64,000 bases of DNA from Alphaproteobacteria bacterium (GTDB taxonomy: Bacteria; Pseudomonadota; Alphaproteobacteria; Micavibrionales; Micavibrionaceae): contig NVTV01000002.1 in assembly GCA_002401695.1 (NCBI GenBank), positions 496,001 to 560,000 on the forward strand, written 5' to 3'. The position numbers and the translations under genes are program-made. Positions 11,311 to 57,529 of this stretch are shown one piece after another. Position 1 is the stretch's first letter, and every line of letters begins with the position of its first letter. A model generated the notes under the pieces. It made no database searches. It was not told where the DNA came from and saw nothing but the letters and a program-made list of their open reading frames with translations.

Positions 11311-12618
11311 CTATCTGTCATCAAGGTCAACATAAGGTCTTTGCGTTGGCCCTGTATAGAGTTGTCTCGGACGACCAATACGCAAGGCTGGCTCCTCAAT
11401 CATTTCTTTCCACTGTGAAACCCAGCCAACCGTACGTGCTATGGCAAACAATACCGTAAACATACTGGTTGGAAATCCCATGGCTTTCAGAATAATACCG
11501 GAATAGAAATCAACATTCGGGAAAAGCTTTCTTTCAATGAAGTAGGGGTCTTCTAGTGCGATGCGTTCAAGTTCCATGGCCAGTTCAAGTCTTGGGTCAT
11601 TGATGCCCAAATCCTCAAGAACCTCATCGCATGCCGCTTTCAACACATTTGCGCGTGGGTCAAAGTTTTTGTAAACACGGTGGCCAAAGCCCATGAGGCG
11701 GAACGGATCATCCTTGTCTTTTGCACGTGCTATAAATTCAGGGATATTTTCAACAGAGCCAATTTCATCCAGCATTTCTAAAACAGCTTGGTTTGCGCCG
11801 CCGTGACTTGGTCCCCAAAGGCATGCTATTCCCGATGATACACAAGCGAACGGATTGGCTTGTGATGATCCGGCCAAACGTACTGTTGATGTTGATGCAT
11901 TTTGCTCGTGGTCAGCATGTAGAATAAAGATCTTATCCATTGCCCTGGCAAGAACAGGGTTTACTTTGTAAGGCTCCGCTGGAACCGCAAAACACATATA
12001 GAGGAAATTCTCGGCAAAAGATAAATCATTGCGTGGATACATAAAAGGCTGACCAATCGAGTATTTGTGGGTCATCGCGCCTAATGTTGCGACTTTTGCA
12101 ATCAGGCGGTGCGCGGAAATTTCACGTTGCGCCGGATCATGAATGTCTAGTGAGTCATGATAGAATGCAGACAGCGCACCAACCACGCCACACATAATTG
12201 CCATTGGATGCGCGTCACGTCTAAAGCCGCGGTAGAAGAAGTTCACTTGTTCATCAACCATCGTGTGATAGGTGATATTATGTTCAAATTCTTCTTTTTG
12301 CTGTTTGTCGGGCAGGTCGCCATTCAGTAACAAATATGAAACTTCTAAAAAATCGCTCTTTTCTGCGAGATCGGCAATGTCATAGCCGCGATGTTGTAGA
12401 ATACCTTTTTCACCATCAATGAATGTTATTCTGGATTTGCAGCTTCCCGTTGCGGTAAAGCTTGGGTCAAAGGTGAAATGCCCCGTTTGGGCATAAAGCT
12501 TACGGATATCTAACACTGGCGGGCCTGCGGTACCTTCCAAAACAGGCAATTTAATAGAATCACCAGTTTGGTCATTTGTCAGAGTGAATGTCTTATCGGT
12601 TTTAGGGTTCTGCGTCAT
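11311..12618 (-). CDS. gltA: Citrate synthase (type II, GltA)
   Basis: Condenses acetyl-CoA and oxaloacetate to citrate, entry to the TCA cycle. The 435-residue protein fits the hexameric Gram-negative class. It has an N-terminal beta-rich domain ([19 protein letters not shown]) followed by the helical catalytic domain. Active-site blocks are [12 protein letters not shown] (His, about 270), [14 protein letters not shown] (His, about 310-323) and the Asp in [10 protein letters not shown] (about 365-374). It is alone on its strand, ends at the shared terminator with lpxB, and has a good promoter upstream at 12733-12761. Confidence 0.97.
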
Positions 12619-12732
12619 CGTTCGATCCTCGATTAATAGGGCTATAGGGAGTAAGTATACGCAGAATAGTAATCTTGATTATCATCGTGCCAAAGGACTC
12701 GGCAACGGAAGGGGTGTCACAAGGACAAGACG

Positions 12733-53011: not shown

Positions 53012-54058
53012 CTAAACAACGTGAATGCGTTGCTCATCCATCCCCATCGCATAGAGGATAGGGGTTTGCCCCTTTTGTCGTTCGATGAAGTCGGCTTTGC
53101 AGTGCAGCCCATCCCATCCAATTTGGATAAGGCTCTGCGCGATTGCGCCGCCTAGCGTCGTGCCGGGTCCAAGGACTATAATGCAATCAGGGGCAAACTC
53201 TTTCATACCAACCTGAATGGCGCGTGTGAAATCATAATATTGGCAAACCTGATGATTAAAGGTGTAGCTTTCTATATCGATTTGGTCTGTTGCATGTGGT
53301 CGCCATATATGTCCGCGCCCGTCAATCAAGGGAACAGAAGGTGCGGAAAAAATATCGGCAGAGAAAAGACCTAGAGCCTTGTCTGAGATTGGTTTTTGTA
53401 AAGATGTATGAAACGCCGCATGATTGGGTAATATAAGTGGGAAGCGGTCTTGCACCGTGGGTAAACGTTTGTGCAGCTCTTTAATTGCTGCGTCATTGCC
53501 GCTATAAACGACAAATCCGCCTAACATGATGGAGGTGTGAAGCGTGCATCCCTTCACTGCATTAATATCAACAACAATACGTGCCAGTTCCGCTTCTTTG
53601 CCCTCAATGATATTCCAGCTATCATCAACAATCGGATAGATAAGTTGCCCACCGATAAGGGAGTCCTGCATCATTGTGCCCATCGTGTTAATAACATCGG
53701 TTGTGCTGGTTTCGGACAGGGCTTTGCCGCAGCCAAGCGCAATATACCAGCCCATAGAATTACCCGTAATAGCGACAATGTCGAATTTATCCTTGTCGAT
53801 AGAGAGGTAATCGCCATAGGCACAAGCATAAATAAGGGGCGAAGCATTATCGCCGCGCGTATGTTCCTTCAAATTATAGGTGGGTTTGCCATCAAGGTCA
53901 GAGATCGTGATTTGATCTTTCGATGTTCGGTACGTATCAATCATAGAGATAAAACCAGCATTATCCGCGTGATGTTTCTGCAAATAGCCAAGCTCTGCCT
54001 TGTTGTATGTTCCTCTGCCCGGTGCGATAACTAAGGCTCTTTTCTTTGATACGGGCAT
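53012..54058 (-). CDS. FabD-like acyltransferase lacking the malonate-binding Arg
   Basis: Resembles malonyl-CoA:ACP acyltransferases. The 348-residue protein has the nucleophile elbow ITGNSMGW (Ser101), the general-base His in HAAFHTSLQ (His217) and the late GPGTTLGGA block (about 297-305). The FabD Arg that binds the malonyl carboxylate lies in a MRGKFMQ-type block; here the aligned segment is TMGTMMQ, with Met126 in that place. That is expected for enzymes using neutral acyl groups, not malonyl, but substrate is inferred. The gene starts 2 bp after the stop of a fused E1 gene, so they are one operon. The first 60 residues are unusual for FabD. Confidence 0.75.
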   Translation of the reverse strand: MPVSKKRALVIAPGRGTYNKAELGYLQKHHADNAGFISMIDTYRTSKDQITISDLDGKPTYNLKEHTRGDNASPLIYACAYGDYLSIDKDKFDIVAITGNSMGWYIALGCGKALSETSTTDVINTMGTMMQDSLIGGQLIYPIVDDSWNIIEGKEAELARIVVDINAVKGCTLHTSIMLGGFVVYSGNDAAIKELHKRLPTVQDRFPLILPNHAAFHTSLQKPISDKALGLFSADIFSAPSVPLIDGRGHIWRPHATDQIDIESYTFNHQVCQYYDFTRAIQVGMKEFAPDCIIVLGPGTTLGGAIAQSLIQIGWDGLHCKADFIERQKGQTPILYAMGMDEQRIHVV

Positions 54059-54060
54059 GT

Positions 54061-56283
54061 TTATTCCTCACCTAACAGTTCAAGTGCGCTTTGGATGATT
54101 GAGTCTTTGCTGGGCAGCGTCGTCGCATAGGCTTTCCCCAAGGGGATAAAACAATCATCCGCGGTTAAGCGTTCAATCTTGGGCATTGGTGACATGTTTT
54201 CCATCACCATGCTCATCAAAGCTTCGCTGATCGAGCCACTGCGTCTGCACTCATCAACAATCAATATATGTTTACAGGGTTTGAGGGCTTTCAAGATGGC
54301 AGTCTCATTCAGGGGTGCCAGCCAGCGTAAATCAATCACGCGCAGCTTAATCTTGTGCTCTTTTTCCAATACATGCGCCGCTTGGCGGGATAGGTAATAG
54401 CCGTTACCGTAGGTAAGAATACAAAGCTCTGTCCCTTTACCGTGGACATGGATATCACCAAAGGCGATCGGTTTGGCGTTCTTAGGTTCTAGGTAAGGGA
54501 ATGTCCAAAGCCCATCTTTTTCGGCGTGTAAGTCACGCGCCATATAGAGCGCGATAGGCTCTAGAAATACGACAATGCGTTGCTCTTCGCGTGCCAATCT
54601 AACGGCCTCGCGCATCATCTCCACTGCGTCCGCGCCATTGGATGGGCAGGCGATAATAATGCCGGGAATATCGCGCAAAACGGCAAAGGAATTATCATTG
54701 TGGAAATGCCCGCCAAAGCCTTTCTGATAGGCTAACCCAGCCACACGGATCACCATTGGGTTTGTATATTGCTTGTTCGAGAAAAAGCTGAGCGTTGCGG
54801 CTTCGCCCCTTAACTGATCCTCCGCATTATGTAGATAGGCGAGGAATTGGATTTCGGGAATTGGTAGGACACCATTATGTGCCATACCAATCGCAAGACC
54901 CAGAATGGTTTGCTCGTCTAGCAATGTGTTGATAATGCGGTGCCCACCAAACCTATCATGTAGCTTAGAGGTAACATTGTATACACCGCCTTTCGGCCCA
55001 ATATCCTCACCCGCCATCACGATATTGTCATGTGACAGCATAAGGTCGTGTAACGCCCAATTGATAAGGCGCGCCATATGTTGTGGCTGTTTCATCGTCT
55101 GAATTTCCCGGCCAAAACTTTTTTCGCGGACTTTGGTAGTCGGCAACGCCACAGGCACAATATCTTTAACCACATCAGGGATAATGCTTTCTTGCACGCT
55201 CAAGGAGGTTGTGAGTTTTGGGCGGTTAATAATGTGCCGTGCTGCGCTCTCAACGCGCACGCCAATTTCACTATAAATATCGAGAATTTGCGCTGAGGTT
55301 AGAATATTATTCTGGATCATCAAGCTGGCAGTATGCAGGAGTGGGTCTTGCGCCTCGGCTTGTTCAACTTGCTCTTTGCTCATATAAGCGGTTTGCACAT
55401 CCGGCCCTGCGTGACCATACAGGCGCACACATTTTTTATGCAGGAAGACGGGGGCTTTATGCGTGCGGGCATAGGCGGCGGCCTCTTGCGTCACCTGATA
55501 AGTTTCCAACGCGTTCAAACCATTACAATAGAAATATTTTAATCCGGGGCGATTTTTGAAATTATTATACACCCAGTTTTTCGGTGTTGGGGTTGATATG
55601 CCAATGTCATTATCTTCGCACAGGAAAAGCAGCGGCAGGGCAGAGCCTTTATAAGACGCCCAACCCGCAGCATTAAACGCCCCTTGCGCGGTGGAGTGAT
55701 TAACCGATGCATCACCGAAGCTGCAAAATATAAGGCCGTCGTTTGGAATTTCGTTGTGCTTATTAATCTTGGTATTCAGCCCGATGCTGTGCGCCGCGCC
55801 GACGGCTTTGGGGAGATGCGATGCAATGGTGCTGGTTTGCGGCGGAATGTGCAGAGCTTTGCTGCCCAACACTTTGTGCCGTCCCGCAGAAATTGGATCT
55901 TCACTGGAGGCGGTAAAGCTGAGCAGCATATCCCATAAAGGCGTTTGCCCCGCCAGCTTTTTGGAGCGTTGAATAAAAAACGCGGCATCGCGGTAATGTA
56001 GGAATGCCATATCATCAAGGCGCAGAGCAGCAGAGACCGCGGCGTTACCCTCATGCCCTGAACTGCCAATCGTATAAAATCCTTCGCCAATAGATTGAAG
56101 ATTACGTGATTCCATATCAAGGCGGCGGCTTAAGATTTGGCTTTCAAATATTTCGGTAAATTGTGCGTTTGTAAGACCCACGGCATCAGGAGATATGAAA
56201 TCCGTATTTGGTAAATCCTCGTCTTGAATCCGACGAAGAAAATTTTCATGAACAATTTTAGCGCGGTCTTTCATGGGCTGCAC
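54061..56283 (-). CDS. Fused alpha-beta 2-oxoacid dehydrogenase E1
   Basis: Thiamine-diphosphate enzyme with alpha and beta subunits on one 740-residue chain (or 737 from ATG 56274). The alpha part (about 1-380) has FYTIGSSGHEGNAAVS, HYRDAAFFIQ, the TPP/Mg block CSFGDASVNHSTAQGAFNAA (about 188-207) and CEDNDIGIS. The beta part (about 400-740) has MAGEDIGPKGGVYNVTSKLH, LLDEQTILGLAIGMA, EIQFLAYLHNAEDQLRGE and a C-terminal transketolase domain. It resembles branched-chain 2-oxoacid E1 fusions; the exact substrate is unknown. No E2 is adjacent. The 2-bp gap to the acyltransferase gene suggests a shared role. It is divergent from gcdH (61 bp between starts). Confidence 0.85.
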   Translation of the reverse strand: MQPMKDRAKIVHENFLRRIQDEDLPNTDFISPDAVGLTNAQFTEIFESQILSRRLDMESRNLQSIGEGFYTIGSSGHEGNAAVSAALRLDDMAFLHYRDAAFFIQRSKKLAGQTPLWDMLLSFTASSEDPISAGRHKVLGSKALHIPPQTSTIASHLPKAVGAAHSIGLNTKINKHNEIPNDGLIFCSFGDASVNHSTAQGAFNAAGWASYKGSALPLLFLCEDNDIGISTPTPKNWVYNNFKNRPGLKYFYCNGLNALETYQVTQEAAAYARTHKAPVFLHKKCVRLYGHAGPDVQTAYMSKEQVEQAEAQDPLLHTASLMIQNNILTSAQILDIYSEIGVRVESAARHIINRPKLTTSLSVQESIIPDVVKDIVPVALPTTKVREKSFGREIQTMKQPQHMARLINWALHDLMLSHDNIVMAGEDIGPKGGVYNVTSKLHDRFGGHRIINTLLDEQTILGLAIGMAHNGVLPIPEIQFLAYLHNAEDQLRGEAATLSFFSNKQYTNPMVIRVAGLAYQKGFGGHFHNDNSFAVLRDIPGIIIACPSNGADAVEMMREAVRLAREEQRIVVFLEPIALYMARDLHAEKDGLWTFPYLEPKNAKPIAFGDIHVHGKGTELCILTYGNGYYLSRQAAHVLEKEHKIKLRVIDLRWLAPLNETAILKALKPCKHILIVDECRRSGSISEALMSMVMENMSPMPKIERLTADDCFIPLGKAYATTLPSKDSIIQSALELLGEE

Positions 56284-56344
56284 TTTATCATCGGGGGGGA
56301 GTGATGTATAGTTCCCGACAGATATAAAATGAGGAATATACGTT

Positions 56345-57529
56345 ATGAGTCGCTCCGTTTTTCAATGGGAAGATCCGCTATTATTAGAAACATGTTTAAG
56401 CGAAGATGAGCGCGCCATACGCGATGCAGCGCATGCTTACGCGCAAGATAAGCTAGCCCCCCGCGTGCTGGATGCTTACAGAGATGATCACTTTGATCCC
56501 GATATTCTAAAGGAAATGGGCGAACTAGGTTTGCTGGGTTCTACCTTGCCGGAGAAGTATGGCGGGGCGGCTGTAAATTACGTATCTTATGGCCTAATTG
56601 CGCGTGAGATTGAGCGCGTAGATTCTGGCTATCGCTCTGCTATGTCGGTGCAATCCTCGTTGGTGATGTATCCGATTTATGCATGGGGTTCGGAAGAGCA
56701 ACGTATGAAATATTTGCCGAAACTAGCCAGTGGCGAACATATTGGGTGCTTTGGCTTGACCGAGCCTGATGCTGGTTCTGATCCGGGATCAATGCTGACC
56801 CGCGCCGAAAAAGTTGATGGAGGGTATAAGCTGACCGGTTCGAAAATCTGGATCAGTAATTCACCCATTGCTGACGTGTTTGTCGTGTGGGCTAAATCTG
56901 TGGCGCATGACAATAAGATCAAAGGCTTTATCCTTGAGAAAGGCATGAAGGGGCTGTCCGCTCCTAAAATAGGCGGGAAGCTATCATTACGAGCTTCGAT
57001 CACGGGTGAAATCGTGATGGATGGCGTTGTCGTCTCGGAAGACCATCTCCTATCTAAGGCCGAAGGCTTGCGCGGCCCATTTGAATGCCTTAACCGTGCG
57101 CGTTACGGCATTGCATGGGGCGTTATGGGCGCGGCGGAATTCTGCTGGCACGCGGCGCGACAATATACGCTGGATCGTAAGCAATTTGATAGGCCGCTTG
57201 CCCAGACGCAATTGGTGCAGAAAAAACTGGCTGATATGCAAACTGAAATTACTCTGGGTCTGCACGCGGCTCTGCAAGTCGGGCGTTTGATGGATGATGA
57301 TAATTTTGCGCCTGAAATGATTTCTCTGATTAAGCGCAATAACTGCGGCAAAGCACTCGATATCTCACGTATGGCGCGGGATATGCACGGTGGTAATGGT
57401 ATCTCTGATGAGTTCCACGTTATGCGTCATATGTGTAATCTGGAATCCGTGAACACTTATGAGGGGACGCATGACGTGCATGCTCTCATATTAGGGCGCG
57501 CGCAAACGGGTTTGCAGGCATTCTTTTAA
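56345..57529 (+). CDS. gcdH: Glutaryl-CoA dehydrogenase-like acyl-CoA dehydrogenase
   Basis: FAD enzyme that oxidises and decarboxylates glutaryl-CoA to crotonyl-CoA, used in lysine and tryptophan breakdown. The 394-residue protein has the family-specific [22 protein letters not shown] block with the glutarate-binding Arg (about 94). Other blocks are [16 protein letters not shown], and [18 protein letters not shown] with the catalytic Glu near 375 and the His that GCD-type enzymes show. The C-terminal ending [11 protein letters not shown] is typical of GcdH. Upstream lies the E1 fusion on the other strand. It precedes ispG by 35 bp but is unrelated in pathway. Confidence 0.88.

Follow-up and report, generated by a model that had tools for sequence, protein, structure and literature searches.

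The DNA analysed here (the window) is a 64,000-nucleotide stretch from a Micavibrionaceae alphaproteobacterium (contig NVTV01000002.1 of assembly GCA_002401695.1, positions 496,001 to 560,000). Within it we describe a pair of reverse-strand genes encoding a fused α-β thiamine diphosphate (ThDP)-dependent E1 component of 2-oxoacid dehydrogenases and an acyltransferase (AT) with the FabD fold, next to a divergent gene for glutaryl-CoA dehydrogenase (GCDH). A role for the pair in lysine and tryptophan catabolism is, on balance, favoured.

Organisation of the locus

The E1 gene spans 54061-56283 on the minus strand and encodes 740 amino acids from a GTG codon. The alignment consensus of its relatives favours an ATG three codons further in, at 56274, which is probably the true start and would give a protein of 737 residues. 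The AT gene (53012-54058, minus strand, 348 amino acids) begins 2 bp after the E1 stop codon in the list of open reading frames. On the other side of E1, across a divergent intergenic region of 61 bp (56284-56344), lies the plus-strand gene for GCDH (56345-57529, 394 amino acids). The intergenic region contains a single, weak promoter-like match (plus strand, 56285-56312, 9/12); the scanned region as a whole scored below the shuffle mean and displayed no excess of promoter- or terminator-like signals.

The E1 polypeptide matches, in a single chain, PF00676 (E1_dh; E-value 1.8e-25, 89.9 bits), PF02779 (Transket_pyr; 1.1e-21, 77.7 bits) and PF02780 (Transketolase_C; 8.3e-18, 64.9 bits), all above their gathering scores, and no further domain was detected in it at E ≤0.001. 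This is the domain composition of E1s from the pyruvate and branched-chain 2-oxoacid dehydrogenases (PDH/BCKDH) and not that of the 2-oxoglutarate dehydrogenase (OGDH) type, to which the human 2-oxoadipate E1, DHTKD1, belongs. Asp191, Asn225, Glu457 and His528, which presumably have catalytic roles, are invariant in the aligned relatives, and a structural model of the protein has a pLDDT of 85. Pocket residues were also considered as proof of a dicarboxylate substrate, a proposal that was rejected, as the E1 structure 1um9 has identical residues at the positions of His156 and His526. An earlier reading of the DNA from its letters alone (the sequence-only reading) had described a single-chain E1 followed 2 bp later by the AT, a description borne out by the open reading frames and the domain matches; the GCDH adjoining E1 on the divergent strand is absent from that reading.

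The best match of the GCDH in the Protein Data Bank (PDB) is 4w9u (680 bits), deposited as an acyl-CoA dehydrogenase, and it also matches 3d6b, a deposited GCDH (628 bits), and 1siq (580 bits), which we take to be the human GCDH. Arg97, Ser98 and Glu373 are retained in all 66 aligned proteins; we take the Arg-Ser pair to form the glutarate site and the Glu to be catalytic. The product of 56345-57529 is thus, as judged from its sequence, a glutaryl-CoA dehydrogenase.

An acyltransferase of the FabD fold

Scanning of genome contigs identified 338 relatives of the AT, 80 of which were kept; the records are from Alphaproteobacteria, Gammaproteobacteria or unclassified Proteobacteria, and the nearest named contigs are from Micavibrio and unclassified Alphaproteobacteria. 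Residue conservation was assessed in alignments of 60 (A3) and 45 (A4) of the available proteins. The window protein (ACYLTRANSFERASE) has no match to a Pfam family, and PF00698 was matched in just 4 of 60 relatives at an E-value of 0.01. Against TIGR00128 (fabD) the window protein scored 29 bits, the family cut-off being 260.9, while TIGR03131, the profile of the malonate decarboxylase epsilon subunit MdcH, was matched by 58 of 60 AT proteins (best E-value 2e-16). No malonate decarboxylase gene is present among the annotated neighbours of the AT, although none was specifically searched for. An AlphaFold model built from 60 aligned sequences (pLDDT 96.5) superimposes on entries for FabD, the malonyl-CoA:ACP transacylase (MCAT), with Z-scores of 31-34 over 283-300 residues at 2.1-3.1 Å and 14-20% identity. 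Both the structural and the weak sequence matches include the trans-acting acyl hydrolase PksD, which shares this fold, although there are no polyketide genes among the annotated neighbours.

The AT shares with FabD the whole fold and the Ser-His pair: Ser101 and His217 are identical in all 60 relatives, and each of 11 FabD proteins from related genomes has its Ser and His at these positions. By contrast, the residues around this pair differ. Met126, present in 60/60 relatives, occupies the position of the malonate-binding Arg, which is retained in 11/11 FabD proteins; a profile alignment to FabD sequences from the PDB gives the same placement, and no different Arg of the AT falls in this column. 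Arg15 (60/60) stands where FabD has a Gln (11/11) in its PGQG loop, and Asn100 (60/60) where FabD has a His (11/11). In E. coli FabD numbering we take these changes to be Arg117 to Met, Gln11 to Arg and His91 to Asn. An insertion of three residues near 246-249, the low identity and the sub-cut-off score further distinguish the AT from FabD. The FabD-like character, the intact Ser101 and His217 and the Met at the Arg position had all been noticed in the sequence-only reading, and all three hold. In these alignments, however, the Arg-to-Met change is one of three linked changes, one of which adds an Arg. As three FabD pocket residues change together, the lost Arg is no argument for neutral acyl groups. 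Arg15 could instead bind the distal carboxylate of a longer dicarboxylic group such as glutaryl, replacing the lost Arg, if it points into the pocket as we suppose.

Conserved gene neighbourhood and genomic co-occurrence

Among the 80 AT loci, E1 was found in 76 and GCDH in 54. E1 lies directly upstream of the AT in 70 of the 71 loci with at least 2.6 kb of upstream DNA, the exception being L039, and 59 of 68 E1-AT junctions range from an overlap of 16 bp to a gap of 13 bp when starts are chosen mechanically. Of the 69 loci in which E1 is present with 1.5 kb or more of DNA upstream of it, 51 have GCDH no further than 600 bp from E1, 46 of these on the E1 strand. The sequence-only reading would have been undermined by a different Arg in the carboxylate site, or by a pair unlinked in all relatives; neither was encountered. 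Its observation is thus confirmed, while its interpretation, discussed below, is partly supported. Public records name the E1 ‘alpha-ketoacid dehydrogenase subunit alpha/beta' or ‘thiamine pyrophosphate-dependent enzyme', and the AT ‘ACP S-malonyltransferase'.

Genes neighbouring the AT were clustered, some clusters being given to family searches and others viewed by their first residues or left aside. A LysR-type regulator gene recurs: 37 of the 82 clustered loci have one, each time on the opposite strand from the AT. Thirteen of the 82 encode L-piperidine-6-carboxylate (P6C) dehydrogenase, at 0 to 8 kb from the AT in the loci measured; all 13 match NF050084 at an E-value of 1e-150 or better, and the two members scored singly both exceed its cut-off. 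Other recurring lysine-pathway genes encode saccharopine/lysine-dehydrogenase-like proteins (nine loci), ELFV amino-acid dehydrogenases (four) and aspartate-type aminotransferases (four). In L038 an ELFV dehydrogenase, a saccharopine/lysine-dehydrogenase-like gene, P6C dehydrogenase (832 bits, cut-off 730), AT and GCDH stand side by side, E1 being missing. In Ruegeria pomeroyi the lysine dehydrogenase SPO0234 and the aminoadipate-semialdehyde dehydrogenase SPO0235 were re-annotated on the basis of function (PMC4334477). Short DUF1338/HGLS-type genes adjoin the E1-AT cassette only in L047 (5482-6279) and L050 (10679-11482); those in L113, L116 and L118 are away from it and, in L113 and L116, lie beside genes that read as ast-like. 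As these three lie away from the cassette, the short genes were used cautiously as pathway evidence.

Co-occurrence was assessed in 398 Proteobacteria genomes, with thresholds of E 1e-40 for AT, 1e-100 for E1 and 1e-180 for P6C dehydrogenase, and of more than 400 bits for full-length HGLS. AT was found in 16 genomes and E1 in 29, and all 16 AT genomes carry E1, within ∼130 bp of the AT by match coordinates (hypergeometric probability 5e-21, a statistic that ignores ancestry). P6C dehydrogenase was present in 19 of the 29 E1 genomes compared with 64 of 369 others, again without regard to shared ancestry, and in four of the 16 AT genomes (G192, G286, G445 and G447) it lies no more than ∼130 bp downstream of the AT. 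The copy in G447 (C2:904215-905627) displays two in-frame stops in the search output that the copy in the sister genome G445 does not. The window's own genome encodes P6C dehydrogenase outside the window (C34:18215-19636, 798 bits). 3-Hydroxyanthranilate dioxygenase (3-HAO) was found in 15 of 29 E1 genomes and in 1 of 51 controls, which were hand-picked and non-random; at least one of the two enzymes is present in 23 of the 29. In genomes with P6C dehydrogenase, the presence of full-length HGLS shows no association with that of E1, positive or negative. The E1 is, as would be expected of a 2-oxoadipate dehydrogenase, linked in genomes both to enzymes that form 2-oxoadipate and to one that uses glutaryl-CoA.

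E2 genes and the lipoyl partner

The sequence-only reading had noted that no E2 is near the pair, and this is a general property of these loci: tblastn searches with the three E2s of the window's genome gave no match in the 80 AT loci. In the window the nearest lies ∼19 kb from E1, in a PDH cluster. The AT itself does not qualify as an E2, a component with catalytic, lipoyl and E3-binding domains, as it matches no Pfam family and has the FabD fold; it is likened to E2 only by the work proposed for it. The window's genome (G000) contains three genes with E3-binding domains, located in the PDH cluster, on C19 near a split E1 and on C31; the C31 protein is taken, by elimination, to be the OGDH E2. 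The sole E2 match among 102 loci examined is in L142 (G359), where the E1 has no AT; this E2 is ∼6.6 kb from E1 and 58% identical to the C31 E2. E3-binding domains are encoded ∼11 kb from E1 in G151 and G450, which are also AT-less and of the same genus, and 44 to 228 kb away in the related G088, G454 and G147. This pattern hints, weakly, that AT-less E1s share the OGDH E2. Among 24 AT-bearing genomes, one E3-binding-domain match was found in two, two in ten, three in eleven and four in one, some of the matches being weak. In genomes with two matches, PDH and OGDH probably account for both.

A proposed role in 2-oxoadipate oxidation

Lysine and tryptophan degradation converge on 2-oxoadipate, and GCDH uses the expected product of its oxidation. 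As P6C dehydrogenase and 3-HAO co-occur with the E1, we consider it very likely that 2-oxoadipate is the substrate of the enzyme. The pairing of E1 with AT, the linkage to GCDH, the lysine-pathway neighbours, the residue swaps and the lack of a linked E2 are the observations on which the wider proposal is built, in which the pair is part of a lysine/tryptophan catabolic module comprising the proposed E1, AT and GCDH steps, a view that we hold to be somewhat better than even. In such a module the fused E1 would decarboxylate 2-oxoadipate and transfer the resulting glutaryl group, by reductive acylation, to a lipoyl domain; as no E2 is encoded with E1, this domain would be borrowed from another complex, a partner deduced rather than observed. 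The AT would then take glutaryl onto Ser101, with His217 as the base, and pass it to CoA, and the glutaryl-CoA formed would be converted into crotonyl-CoA by the adjacent GCDH. That the AT catalyses the movement of glutaryl from lipoyl domain to CoA, and in that direction, is a tentative suggestion, somewhat short of even odds. More doubtful still is the full substitution that this implies, in which the acyl-transfer step of E2 has passed to a free-standing serine acyltransferase of the FabD fold, whose carboxylate-binding Arg has shifted from position 117 of the FabD scaffold to position 11, leaving a 2-oxoadipate dehydrogenase that lacks an E2 core.

The window E1 has the same three domains and the same type of invariant residues as the heterotetrameric PDH/BCKDH E1s (1um9, 1w85 and 1dtw) but is an α-β fusion with neither E2 nor E3 beside it. 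DHTKD1 lacks an E2 of its own and shares DLST and DLD with other complexes; it is, however, an OGDH-type enzyme, whereas the window E1 is of the PDH/BCKDH type and has an AT partner. The two would have their reaction in common, as a report on the human 2-oxoadipate dehydrogenase complex indicates (PMC9367764). Other bacterial fates of 2-oxoadipate or glutarate in lysine degradation involve HglS (DUF1338) and GcdG/CaiB (PMC7286885 and PMC7645780). HglS makes 2-hydroxyglutarate and CaiB activates free glutarate, both unlike the proposed E1-AT route. The E1 is probably a fused enzyme of the PDH/BCKDH type that works on 2-oxoadipate, with a partner that has the FabD fold but fails membership of the FabD family. 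Neither a bacterial E1 dedicated to 2-oxoadipate nor such a FabD-like partner was found in the literature searched, which comprised open-licence papers; nothing on this step was found in PMC9007349.

E1 without AT, AT without E1

Several observations weigh against the proposal. The E1 pocket gives no sign of 2-oxoadipate specificity, His156 and His526 being common to 1um9. At the thresholds used, P6C dehydrogenase was not found in 10 of the 29 E1 genomes, six of which also lack 3-HAO; the latter enzyme serves NAD synthesis as well as tryptophan catabolism, and the co-occurrence tests ignore shared ancestry. The three E3-binding-domain matches in 11 of 24 AT-bearing genomes, and the four in one, would allow a dedicated, unlinked E2 there. 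We know of no lipoyl acyltransferase with the FabD fold. In Phaeobacter, 13C-lysine labelled 2-aminoadipate and glutaryl-CoA, 2-oxoadipate being undetected, and a cadaverine-glutarate route ran in parallel, according to PMC5653290. The two genes can also be parted. L131, L132 and L134 contain GCDH and E1 without AT, and no AT was detected in the corresponding genomes (G393, G064 and G140) at an E-value of 1e-40. The Legionella adelaidensis locus (L128) likewise has E1 and GCDH with no AT beside them, an observation that covers the locus only. A deep clade of fused E1s also lacks AT (L135-L143, in G147, G454, G341, G270, G211, G088, G151, G359 and G450). Conversely, AT was found without a detected E1 in G004 (L039) and G042 (L038), genomes that are 86 and 90% complete, respectively; E1 was present in the other seven of the nine AT genomes among 58 relatives.

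The proteins of the deep AT-less clade are ∼44-48% identical, and P6C dehydrogenase and 3-HAO are present in all nine genomes; in five of the nine sampled loci a GCDH-like gene, 48-50% identical to that of the window, is located ∼1.5 to 6.5 kb from E1. Mapping the presence of AT on the E1 tree required three changes, consistent with a single gain and two losses, although long branches leave the deep part of the tree unsure. The existence of E1-GCDH loci without AT shows that the AT is dispensable and the E1 reaction not strictly dependent on it. The AT may either improve that reaction, replace a transferase that takes another form elsewhere, or act beside E1. Faster change of E1 after loss of AT, which was suggested by branch lengths, was rejected against GCDH distances: in the residuals of E1 against GCDH distances the three AT-loss loci have means of -1.6 to -2.3, within the range of AT-bearing loci (-2.6 to +3.3). 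Four E1 positions are invariant in the presence of AT, each altered in one AT-loss protein and none in two.

Two loci call for separate mention. In L039/L031 (contig C14 of G004) the AT is 89% identical to that of the window and, as in the window, lies beside mazG; neither E1 nor GCDH adjoins it and a FolB gene is upstream, which could reflect a deletion or an assembly join. L127 (NZ_LT559118.1, 11.85 Mb), from Nonomuraea gerenzanensis, encodes an E1 homologue of ∼45% identity; the record is in PLSDB as a plasmid but is probably the chromosome.

Alternative roles for the acyltransferase

That the AT is dispensable and yet directly follows E1 would also suit an editing hydrolase, which removes glutaryl or other dead-end acyl groups carried by lipoyl domains, CoA or acyl carrier protein (ACP) and so keeps a shared E2 of the 2-oxoglutarate or pyruvate complex active. 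The acyl hydrolase PksD, with its shared fold, is in line with this idea, as is the serine hydrolase ABHD11, which, according to PMC7426941, keeps the lipoylated E2 of human OGDH functional. ABHD11 has a different fold, however, hydrolysis would waste the thioester that GCDH needs, and the invariant Arg15, like the strict triple swap, points to one particular acyl group; we consider editing unlikely. Equally unlikely, in our estimate, is that E1 acts on 2-oxoadipate while the AT is a co-regulated passenger, for example a salvage enzyme for CoA thioesters outside the E1 reaction. The occurrence of E1-GCDH without AT in several lineages, the lack of a clear excess of E1 change upon AT loss and the single alterations at the four positions would all be expected of a passenger, but the adjacency of E1 and AT in all 16 AT genomes among the 398, and the 59 tight junctions of 68, would not.

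A more improbable role is the shuttling of glutaryl between CoA and ACP, for example towards pimeloyl-ACP for biotin, with E1 supplying glutaryl-CoA for both GCDH and biosynthesis. FabD and MdcH, the nearest families of the AT, have ACP acceptors. Furthermore, Alphaproteobacteria make pimeloyl-ACP from glutaryl-CoA via BioZ, and resting Agrobacterium cells form biotin from 2-oxoadipate, both according to PMC7645780. BioZ, however, takes glutaryl-CoA directly, and no biotin gene is present among the annotated neighbours, although no search was aimed at them. A point in favour is the scarcity of BioC alongside the AT, with scores above its cut-off in 4 of the 18 AT genomes examined compared with 8 of 10 AT-less E1 genomes, although this contrast largely follows the division between alpha and gamma classes. 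As BioC is present in four AT genomes (G183, G375, G377 and G440), biotin synthesis through BioZ cannot be the general role of the AT, while it may still apply in Alphaproteobacteria.

The least likely explanation, and a very improbable one, is that offered by the sequence-only reading, in which E1 makes a short neutral acyl unit that the AT hands on as a primer for fatty acids or polyketides. Acyltransferases without the malonate-binding Arg can accept neutral acyl groups, and that Arg is indeed lost. In L035 the AT is followed by an enoyl-ACP reductase-like gene (11497-12708) and then chorismate synthase, an arrangement that is not a recurring cluster. The conserved linkage to GCDH and lysine-pathway genes points instead to a dicarboxylic unit, probably glutaryl, for which Arg15 may stand in for the lost Arg, and the recurring clusters of neighbours that were searched against families included no ketosynthase or ACP. 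The primer reading was therefore set aside despite L035.

If the assignment of the E1 to 2-oxoadipate is correct, it would supply the enzyme that leads from 2-oxoadipate towards glutaryl-CoA in many Alpha- and Gammaproteobacteria of marine origin. A misannotation would also be put right, and a non-canonical acyl transfer within an oxoacid dehydrogenase would become open to direct test, with the AT-less cassettes (L131, L132, L134 and L128) providing natural controls for the role of the AT.

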